DNA of 49,800 nucleotides, taken from assembly GCA_017962565.1 (NCBI GenBank), contig JAGCVC010000003.1, forward strand, positions 1 to 49,800, written 5' to 3'. Source of the stretch: Alphaproteobacteria bacterium. Lineage in GTDB: Bacteria; Pseudomonadota; Alphaproteobacteria; CAAHEQ01; UBA3637. Numbering within the stretch: position 1 is the first letter of the stretch; the number at the start of each line of letters is the position of its first letter. Positions 41,045 to 43,601 of this stretch are shown piece after piece. The notes under the pieces were generated by a model that was not told the origin of the DNA, did no database searches, and saw nothing but the letters and a program-made list of their open reading frames with translations. Both the position numbers and the translations under genes were made by a program.

Positions 41045-41731
41045 ATGCGCGTATTATTAATAGAAGACGACAAATCGATGGCTCAAAATATCAATACGAT
41101 TTTGACCAAAGAAGGTATGGTTGTTGATGTTTCCAATACCGGGGAAGATGGGAGCGAATACGGCAAGTTATATGATTATGACATCATTATTTTGGATTTG
41201 ATGTTGCCGGATATGGACGGAATCGAAGTTTTGAAAAAATTCCGTTTGGATAAAATTGCAACTCCGGTTTTAATTTTGTCGGGTTTAACAGCTCCTGATA
41301 AGAAAGTTCAAGGATTTATGAACGGCGCAGATGATTATTTAACAAAGCCATTTGACAGATCAGAATTAATTGCCCGAATCAAAGCCATTGTTCGTCGTTC
41401 GCAAGGTCATTCTCGTTCTATTTTGAATGTCGGAAAATTGGAAATTAATTTGGATTCTAAAACAGTTTCCGTTGGCGGAGAAATTGTCCATTTGACCGGT
41501 AAAGAATTTGCTATTTTGGAATTGTTGGCTTTGCGTCAAGGAACAACTTTGAACAAAGAGCAATTCTTAAACCACTTGTACGGCGGTATGGATGAGCCGG
41601 AAGTAAAAATTATCGATGTGTTCATTTGCAAATTGCGTAAGAAATTGCAAGAAGCTACCGGTGGTGATGATTACATCGGTACAATCTGGGGACGCGGATA
41701 TTTATTACAAGCGCCTGAAGATAAAAAATAA
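41045..41731 (+). CDS. ctrA: Cell-cycle response regulator CtrA
   Basis: OmpR-family regulator, 228 aa. Receiver domain with Asp51 as the phosphoacceptor ('[16 protein letters not shown]'), acidic pocket 'IEDD' and Lys in '[13 protein letters not shown]'. DNA-binding domain '[20 protein letters not shown]' and '[20 protein letters not shown]' is nearly identical to Caulobacter CtrA, as is the N-terminus MRVLLIEDD. In alphaproteobacteria it is phosphorylated through the CckA-ChpT relay and controls division, motility or replication genes; its targets here are unknown. The C-terminus lacks the Ala-Ala degradation tag seen in Caulobacter. GAGAGGGGC precedes the ATG. Confidence 0.95.
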
Positions 41732-41750: not shown

Positions 41751-41778
41751 TCAACCCCAAATGATTATTTGGGGTTGA
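41751..41778 (-). terminator. trpS terminator overlapping its stop codon
   Basis: A perfect 12-bp inverted repeat, TCAACCCCAAAT / ATTTGGGGTTGA, with a 4-base loop. It encodes the last codons and stop of trpS. On the minus strand it is followed by ACTTTTTC, good for termination; on the plus strand it may stabilise the ctrA mRNA end. Confidence 0.75.
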
Positions 41779-42763
41779 TTCCTATTTTGGAACGGATAAT
41801 TTGAATGCCTTCTTGTGCAATCGGGCGAACCTTTGCAGCACCTTGTCGCAGAATATCAAACACATCATCCGGATGTTGTTTTAATTCTTCGTACTTTTCA
41901 CGACACGGGCCGAAAAATTCTATAAATTTGTTATACAGTTCTGCTTTTGCTTCTCCGTAAGAAATACCTGCTTTGAATTTTTCAGCAAATGCGGCTGTTT
42001 CTTCCGGTGTTGCCAATTCTTTATACACCATATAAATCAAGTTGCCTTCCGTTTCTTTCGGTTCTGATGCACCTTTGCAATCCGTTTTGATAGAATTGAT
42101 GATTTTTTTGATGCGATTATCCGGTTCAAATAACGGAATAGTATTTCCGTAACTTTTGCTCATTTTACGTCCGTCCAATCCGGGTAAAGTTGCTACATCT
42201 TCTTTTAAATACGGTTCCGGAATTTTAAATGTTTTACCAAAGATGTTGTTAAATTTAATGGCTAAATCGCGGGTGTATTCAATGTGTTGAACTTGATCTT
42301 TTCCTACCGGTACATAATCCACATTAAACATTAAAATATCAGCTGCCATTAAAACAGGATAATTGAACAATCCCATATTAACGGTATCATCTGCTTCGCG
42401 ACCTTCTTCCAAGTTCTTTTCCACAACAGCTTTATAAGCATGTGCGCGATTCATAAAACCTTTTGGACAGACGCAATCCAAAATCAAAGTTAATTCGAAA
42501 ATTTCCGGAATGTCGGATTGGCGATAAAACATTGTGCGTGACGGATCCAATCCCAAAGCCAAATAAGATAAAGCAACTTCAAAAACCAATTCGCGCATTA
42601 ATTTTTGATCTTGAATAAAATTTAAAGCATGATAATCGGCAATAAACAAATATGAATTAAAATCCGGACGAGCAGCCAAATCCAAGCAAGGTTTTAACAT
42701 ACCTAGATAATTGCCTAAATGCGGACGTCCTGTTGGTTTAATTCCTGATAATATAGTTTTCAT
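41765..42763 (-). CDS. trpS: Tryptophanyl-tRNA synthetase
   Basis: Class I synthetase charging tRNA-Trp, 332 aa. 'SGIKPTGRPHLGNYLG' carries the HIGH-type motif (HLGN), and 'LDGRKMSKSYGNTIPL' carries KMSKS. 'VPVGKDQVQHIEYTRDLA' is diagnostic of TrpRS. AAGGAG precedes the ATG. Expressed from its own promoter at 42978-42950 through a leader with a Trp-rich peptide and attenuator. Confidence 0.97.
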   Translation of the reverse strand: MKTILSGIKPTGRPHLGNYLGMLKPCLDLAARPDFNSYLFIADYHALNFIQDQKLMRELVFEVALSYLALGLDPSRTMFYRQSDIPEIFELTLILDCVCPKGFMNRAHAYKAVVEKNLEEGREADDTVNMGLFNYPVLMAADILMFNVDYVPVGKDQVQHIEYTRDLAIKFNNIFGKTFKIPEPYLKEDVATLPGLDGRKMSKSYGNTIPLFEPDNRIKKIINSIKTDCKGASEPKETEGNLIYMVYKELATPEETAAFAEKFKAGISYGEAKAELYNKFIEFFGPCREKYEELKQHPDDVFDILRQGAAKVRPIAQEGIQIIRSKIGINPK

Positions 42764-42811
42764 TTTTTTACTCCTTCATTTTTTTTGTTAATAATTGCCG
42801 CCCATCAAATC

Positions 42812-42838
42812 AAAAAAGCCGTCCATTTGATAGACGGC
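42812..42838 (-). terminator. trpS attenuator terminator (segments 3:4)
   Basis: Minus strand: GCCGTC (42838-42833), 9-base loop TATCAAATG, GACGGC (42823-42818), then TTTTTT (42817-42812). It stands between the leader peptide and trpS, 48 bases before the trpS ATG, with no other gene to terminate except the short leader. Confidence 0.85.
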
Positions 42839-42880
42839 CCGTTTTTTTGTTCTTCATATAAACATATCAAATCAGCCCGT

Positions 42881-42931
42881 CTAAATCGACCGGCGCCACC
42901 AACAAAAAGATGTTATTTGATACGAATACAT
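42881..42931 (-). CDS. trpS leader peptide
   Basis: A 16-codon frame, MYSYQITSFCWWRRSI, with tandem TGG codons at positions 11-12 (42901-42896) and stop TAG at 42883-42881 in the loop of the 1:2 hairpin. AGAGG lies 7 bases before the ATG, near the predicted 5' end of the transcript. Trp is rare overall, so two in 16 codons next to a trpS terminator is a strong sign of a sensing peptide. Its product need have no function of its own. Confidence 0.82.
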   Translation of the reverse strand: MYSYQITSFCWWRRSI

Positions 42932-42949
42932 TTAACTACCTCTGTTTCC

Positions 42950-42978
42950 TTTATAACAAGTCTTAAAATAGCTGTCAA
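42950..42978 (-). promoter_or_regulatory. Consensus trpS promoter
   Basis: Minus strand: TTGACA (42978-42973), 17-bp spacer, TATAAA (42955-42950), starting 10 bases after the stop of the outer-membrane protein gene. The transcript start near 42943 places the leader-peptide ribosome site at the very 5' end. Confidence 0.75.
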
Positions 42979-42987
42979 GTCTTTTTA

Positions 42988-43542
42988 TTAATATTCAAAG
43001 CGCAATCCGCCAAAATAGGAATAAGCTTTTAAATCATACTTTTGATTGCCTATTTCTGCTTTACCATAGTCTGAATAGCGCCCACCGACATCCAAAAAGA
43101 CATTTTCAGTGAACTCCAATTCCAGACCGATTCCGGCTTGCCATGCAAAAGATTTGCTTTTGTTTGAATTTGTTCCGACAGACATGTCATGGAAAGCACA
43201 TCCGGCACCACCCATTATGTATGGGTGAAAAAAGCTGCGTATCGGTGGAGAAAAATAAAGATTACCCATGGCGACGTTATCTTCTATTTTTGTTGTTTTT
43301 CCTTGATAACGACGTTCCGGGTGGAAAGTATATTCGCCTTCCAACCTAAAGAATGAGTAATGATATCCAACAAATGCACCGAACAAAAAATCCGTTTGAC
43401 CTTCATCTAAGTTTACAGATGTGTTTTCAATTTTAAGTTTTTCCGCACCGCCACGTAGACCAAAAAATACATTTGCATTCGCTGTTGAAGCTATACCCAA
43501 TGCCAGTAAAGCAACCAATCCGGTTAAGATAAATTTTTTCAT
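42988..43542 (-). CDS. Outer-membrane beta-barrel protein
   Basis: A 184-aa protein of the small outer-membrane beta-barrel type (OMP_b-brl-like). Signal peptide of about 23 residues ending 'STANA'. Alternating aromatic strands such as 'FLFGAFVGYHYSFFRLEGEY', 'HPYIMGGAGCAFHD' and 'VFLDVGGRYSDYG', with a terminal 'YFGGLRFEY' ending in an aromatic residue, the BAM recognition feature. About eight strands. The ATG at 43542 has AAAGGG upstream; an in-frame ATG 15 bases earlier would place that site inside the gene. Role unknown. Confidence 0.82.
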   Translation of the reverse strand: MKKFILTGLVALLALGIASTANANVFFGLRGGAEKLKIENTSVNLDEGQTDFLFGAFVGYHYSFFRLEGEYTFHPERRYQGKTTKIEDNVAMGNLYFSPPIRSFFHPYIMGGAGCAFHDMSVGTNSNKSKSFAWQAGIGLELEFTENVFLDVGGRYSDYGKAEIGNQKYDLKAYSYFGGLRFEY

Positions 43543-43601
43543 TTTTAACCCTTTCATACCAAGATAAGTTTATTATTAGCATACTTTTGATAAAAGTAAA
43601 A

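Follow-up and report, generated by a model that had tools for sequence, protein, structure and literature searches.

A putative tryptophan-sensing attenuator upstream of the only tryptophanyl-tRNA synthetase gene found in a probably auxotrophic alphaproteobacterium

We analyzed a 49,800-nucleotide stretch of an alphaproteobacterial genome (hereafter the window) and propose, with high confidence and based on its sequence and on modelled folding, that a ribosome-mediated transcription attenuator sensing charged tRNA-Trp controls trpS, which encodes tryptophanyl-tRNA synthetase (TrpRS). This mechanism had been put forward in an initial annotation, and it is now strongly supported by conserved Trp codons, covarying helices, a modelled spacing that fits ribosome stalling, and the lack of a T-box signal.

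Results

Anatomy of the trpS locus

The trpS gene lies on the minus strand of the window (41765–42763), as do the leader elements described below, and its product matched TIGR00233 at 284 bits and, as nearest PDB chain, 5tev at 344 bits. A gene for the cell-cycle response regulator CtrA (41045–41731, NCBIfam 374 bits), convergent with trpS, supports an alphaproteobacterial origin of the stretch.

Direct reading of the sequence upstream of trpS identified a −35 element TTGACA (42973–42978), a 17-nt spacer, and a −10 element TATAAA (42950–42955). This pair was missed by a consensus promoter scanner, which requires a final T that TATAAA lacks. The promoter is followed by a ribosome-binding site, AGAGG (42939–42943), and by a leader peptide ORF of 16 codons (MYSYQITSFCWWRRSI, then a TAG stop; 42881–42931, with its ATG at 42931) that was also delineated from four orthologous loci. 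Its codons read ATG TAT TCG TAT CAA ATA ACA TCT TTT TGT TGG TGG CGC CGG TCG ATT TAG, and the tandem TGG TGG (42896–42901) is the proposed sensor. Further downstream, direct reading and a terminator scan both placed an intrinsic terminator, in which an 11-pair hairpin (42840–42816) is followed by a T-run (42812–42817). Promoter, ribosome site, Trp-tandem leader, and T-run terminator had all been described in the initial annotation, and all were found where it had placed them on the minus strand.

The 138-nt leader RNA folds at z = −4.9, with equal stability reached in 0 of 200 shuffles. The ribosome-binding site of trpS itself (AAGGAG, 42776–42771) is unpaired in the predicted fold, which favours control at the level of transcription.

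Conservation of the leader in relatives

We next compared this region across a sample of 43 genomes from the same order, in which four other genomes (G001, G010, G011, and G012) encode an orthologous trpS (82–90% identity). In all four loci the leader is exactly 16 codons long, has TGG TGG at codons 11–12, and ends in a TAG stop, so that the Trp pair is invariant in 5 of 5 loci. The leader peptides are MYSYQITSFCWWRRSI in the window and MYLCLNTNFRWWRWSE, MFLFQKAQKIWWCLSI, MFLFQKAQKNWWCLSI, and MFLFQKAQKNWWRLSI in the relatives; between the two genera represented, little is retained except Met, the Trp pair, and Ser-15, and most other residues differ. The flanking signals are conserved as well: TTGACA or TTGACT occurs at a comparable distance upstream of the leader in 4/4 relatives, −10 counterparts (TATAGT, TAAAAT, TAAACT) could be recognized by inspection, the leader ribosome site retains a purine-rich AAGG/GAGG, and T-runs are present at the terminator in 4/4 relatives. 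The remaining trpS genes of the order, across the 43 genomes, are without such a leader, except for the second trpS of one genome (G014). Two genomes of the order, G004 and G006, each encode two different trpS genes, and the copies concerned (L004 and L008) are without a leader with tandem Trp codons (WW leader).

Alternative helices and covariation

The leader can be divided into segments forming four helices. Segment 1a (leader codons 3–7, 42913–42924) pairs with segment 2b (42863–42874), and segment 1b (codons 13–15, 42888–42894) pairs with segment 2a (42875–42882) in a protector hairpin. Segment 2a may instead pair with segment 3, the 5′ arm of the terminator (42830–42840), to form an antiterminator, while segments 3 and 4 (the 3′ arm, 42816–42826) form the terminator. 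These assignments rest on covariation counts, complemented by the folding model for segment 2a and by the terminator scan for segments 3 and 4.

All four helices are retained across the four distinct leader sequences, from two genera, on which counts were based with the register set by the fixed-length leader, and both sides have changed in 11 of 35 pairs. Helix 1a:2b carries most of this signal (45 of 48 cells paired; both sides changed in 7 of 12 pairs), followed by 2a:3 (24 of 28; two such pairs), with a single pair of this kind each in 1b:2a (26 of 28 cells) and 3:4 (35 of 36 cells). When one partner was slid by 1–3 bases, paired cells dropped to at most 26/48 (1a:2b), 15/28 (1b:2a), 15/28 (2a:3), and 23/36 (3:4); this control somewhat favours the named helices, which were defined by inspection on the same sequences, and the changes on both sides are therefore the stronger part of the evidence. 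Segment 3 changes between lineages and still pairs with both 2a and 4, and one 2a:3 pair reads G-C, G-U, and A-U across three lineages. A segment-swap duplex test of 1:2 on a single locus (L001) was less clear than the register-based count, with 7% of shuffles equally good.

Aligning the trpS upstream regions of relatives had been proposed at the outset as a check, and a lack of conservation of the Trp codons or of the alternative pairings in close relatives as grounds for rejection; the Trp codons and these pairings are instead kept in the four relatives, with covarying 1:2, 2:3, and 3:4 stems. Two details of the original model needed revision. A hairpin formed by segments 1 and 2 does exist, as annotated, with a stem in two parts (1a:2b and 1b:2a) and the stop codon at the edge of the 1b:2a loop rather than within a simple 1:2 loop. 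Likewise, segment 2 can indeed pair with the terminator arm, the antiterminator conserved in relatives being AGACGG/CCGUCU (2a:3), whereas its pairing with the loop of the terminator is confined to the window: a duplex between segment 2b and that loop (AUUUGAUA/UAUCAAAU), considered as an antiterminator, was absent in relatives on inspection.

Folding with imposed ribosome positions

We then folded the leaders of four loci (L001, L002, L006, and L009) with a ribosome footprint of assumed size imposed at defined positions. With the ribosome at the Trp codons and segment 4 not yet transcribed, the 2a:3 antiterminator formed at probability 1.00 in all four; when the footprint was placed on the stop codon instead, 2a:3 fell to 0.00 and the 3:4 terminator rose to 1.00, again in all four. 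In the model, the full transcript without a ribosome forms the terminator, and the protector, antiterminator, and terminator helices are mutually exclusive states. The spacing initially described thus holds under the assumed footprint, a modelled ribosome freeing segment 2 when at the Trp codons and covering it when at the stop. Once segment 4 is present in the stalled state, the antiterminator wins outright in L006 and L009; the terminator is thermodynamically preferred in L001, L002, and a more distant locus, L048 (see below), so that there the antiterminator would have to act kinetically, by forming first. In L009 without a ribosome and before segment 4, the antiterminator was populated at 0.49.

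These patterns are consistent with the following mechanism. As long as charged tRNA-Trp is plentiful, the leading ribosome would reach the UAG at codon 17 and mask segment 2a, leaving segments 3 and 4 to form the terminator, and transcription would end short of trpS. If charged tRNA-Trp runs short, through either Trp shortage or too little TrpRS, we infer that the ribosome would stall at codons 11–12 and mask 1a and 1b; segment 2a could then pair with the newly emerging segment 3, which would pre-empt the terminator and allow transcription of trpS. If the leader is not translated, the 1:2 hairpin would form, making termination the default.

Alternative explanations

The hairpin at 42840–42816 could in principle be nothing more than the terminator of the preceding gene, which encodes an outer-membrane-type protein (42988–43557), with the leader ORF arising by chance and trpS transcribed from its own downstream promoter. 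That gene has the same orientation, its end lies 57 nt upstream of the leader ATG, and no second terminator was reported between the two. However, a near-consensus promoter sits between this gene and the leader, and the only same-strand promoter-like site past the terminator matches weakly (9/12) and overlaps the start codon. In addition, the leader ORF and its Trp codons are conserved, and three further helices covary, in relatives. We regard this explanation as highly improbable. We give even less credence, close to none, to a T-box or another switch driven by a trans-acting factor (TRAP-like) in place of ribosome stalling. In Firmicutes, aminoacyl-tRNA synthetase genes are usually controlled by T-boxes (PMC1262725), but a T-box needs no ORF such as the conserved tandem-Trp one, which fits stalling, and Rfam scans returned no T-box match at E-values up to 10. 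Overall, no Rfam cis-element, T-box included, scored above threshold at the locus, and the best low-threshold match by E-value was Trp_leader (RF00513), aligned over the full model length at 19.8 bits (E = 0.08), below its gathering threshold of 41 bits.

The attenuator might also work as proposed while its leader peptide, or the released leader RNA, additionally acts in trans. The peTrpL/rnTrpL system of Sinorhizobium meliloti offers an alphaproteobacterial precedent (PMC7298713), yet the leader peptide here is scarcely conserved apart from its Trp codons, and a conserved peptide function is thus unlikely; we regard such an additional role as very doubtful. Attenuation by ribosome stalling at the Trp codons therefore remains our preferred reading.

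Uniqueness in the genome and tryptophan auxotrophy

The whole assembly (1.35 Mb including small overlaps) was scanned for short ORFs that start with ATG and have a ribosome site. Among 1927 short ORFs preceded by a Shine–Dalgarno site, five contained WW (two of these nested), and the trpS leader was the sole one followed by a terminator and then an ORF; this uniqueness argues against the element being a by-product of a loose pattern. The pheS gene was also considered as a second attenuated synthetase gene and rejected, its hairpin being the terminator of the preceding gene with no Phe leader.

The genome is 97% complete, and trpS is a single-copy gene and the only TrpRS gene found in it. Searches in which positive controls were matched found no trpA or trpB, either here or in the order's other genomes with the leader, and no chorismate-binding enzyme in this genome; the organism is thus very probably auxotrophic for Trp. 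Given this probable auxotrophy and a sole trpS, the attenuator would control charging capacity rather than synthesis.

Origin of the leader-bearing trpS

A maximum-likelihood tree of 112 trpS proteins placed the five leader-bearing genes in a clade of their own (100/99), separate from the order's 28 main trpS genes. The leader thus occurs together with a trpS lineage that is foreign to the order, which suggests that enzyme and regulation can be passed on as a unit. The sister of this clade (100/97) is L048, a gene of a Kiloniellaceae MAG; this is a join between two long branches of the kind that may be false. L048 is preceded by a leader (MIKSPNRDLRNWWWPS) containing WWW with a terminator downstream, and its protector hairpin has the same shape as in the window clade, including a G.G mismatch and a six-base loop with the stop. 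In the folding model, a ribosome at its Trp codons yields the antiterminator before segment 4 is transcribed, and this is lost with the ribosome at the stop. Gene and leader of L048 and of the window clade likely share an origin. The L048 genome also contains pieces of a second trpS, and for this reason the L048 gene looks auxiliary.

Beyond this lineage, 110 further alphaproteobacterial trpS upstream regions yielded one more convincing WW leader (L253), and the trpS genes most similar to that of the window in a 385-genome sample of the class yielded none; the trpS Trp leader is accordingly a sporadic rather than general feature of the class. A loose WW/WxW filter had flagged 20 of these 110 loci, most of which resemble overlapping coding frames or GC-rich chance matches.

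L253 (from G329, a 0.9 Mb alphaproteobacterial genome) has a leader, MVKTKKTFSKFTWWRF, at −135, with a hairpin (GGCGUUUUUAACGCC) right at the Trp codons. An unrelated gene, the second trpS of G014 (L005), has a leader, MRTQLTFCSFIWWL, at −126, the Trp codons of which run into a hairpin (GGCUGUAAUUACAGCC) that contains the stop, with no clear T-run terminator. The two arrangements are alike in their small hairpin, stop in the loop, and missing clear T-run, and are associated with unrelated trpS genes; they may represent a different Trp-leader design.

A segment beyond the terminator

Duplex energies pointed to a further 15-base segment (segment 5, 42797–42811), located past the T-run and complementary to segment 3. 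The duplex between the two reaches −22 to −23 kcal/mol in L001, L006, and L009, with 0 of 3000 shuffles as good, and this complementarity is absent in L002, the fourth lineage compared. Segment 5 is transcribed after the T-run and hence too late to influence whether transcription stops at 42812, and it may instead shape the read-through mRNA.

Discussion

Control of trpS by attenuation was initially thought to be rarely or never described, which proved incorrect given several cases from Streptomyces: a Trp attenuator is predicted upstream of S. avermitilis trpS2 (PMC1262725), a trpL2-trpS attenuator is listed for S. lividans (PMC8079986), and the title of Vecchione & Sello 2010, as cited in PMC4787780, refers to attenuation of an auxiliary, antibiotic-resistant trpRS gene in Streptomyces. 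These systems resemble the one in the window in that a tryptophanyl-tRNA synthetase gene is preceded by a leader ORF with Trp coding capacity and by alternative hairpins. They differ in that the regulated gene is trpS2 in S. avermitilis, or an auxiliary one according to the title by Vecchione & Sello, whereas in the window it is the only TrpRS of a probable auxotroph; in addition, the leader of S. lividans contains a single Trp codon (MMTRTCTQLWRAA) and lacks a U-rich tract, in contrast to the tandem codons and intrinsic terminator found here. Proteobacterial trp operon attenuators (RF00513; S. meliloti trpL-trpE(G), PMC7298713) share the tandem Trp codons, the 1:2/2:3/3:4 architecture, and the T-run. 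However, they control biosynthesis, whereas the element described here would control charging, in a genome where trp biosynthesis genes were not found. The gammaproteobacterial pheST attenuator (PMC1262725) is similarly a classical attenuator through which an amino acid controls the gene for its cognate synthetase, although with a different amino acid, gene, and lineage. Finally, ribosome profiling data (PMC4117421) include a translated small leader ORF mapped on the trpS mRNA of Caulobacter crescentus, comparable to the window in the presence of such an ORF on an alphaproteobacterial trpS mRNA.

In the literature we found no paper joining trpS, attenuator, and alphaproteobacteria. This combination of mechanism and target is hence known, and what is new, as far as could be checked, is a sole TrpRS under a Trp attenuator in alphaproteobacteria that are probably Trp auxotrophs. 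One tentative scenario, which we consider possible and rather less than evenly likely, is that trpS and its Trp attenuator constitute a horizontally acquired unit, retained as an additional copy by some free-living alphaproteobacteria and having displaced the resident TrpRS in genome-reduced Trp auxotrophs, with segment 5 adding a further, previously undescribed switch in the read-through mRNA. If this were true, an essential synthetase would have come under termination control in a clade of auxotrophs.

Taken together, these results would extend Trp-leader attenuation of a synthetase gene, as described for Streptomyces, to a small-genome alphaproteobacterial clade in which trp synthesis genes were not found. 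There, the switch could tune charging capacity only, and not synthesis, which would make this clade a clean case for asking why more TrpRS should be made when charged tRNA-Trp is low.
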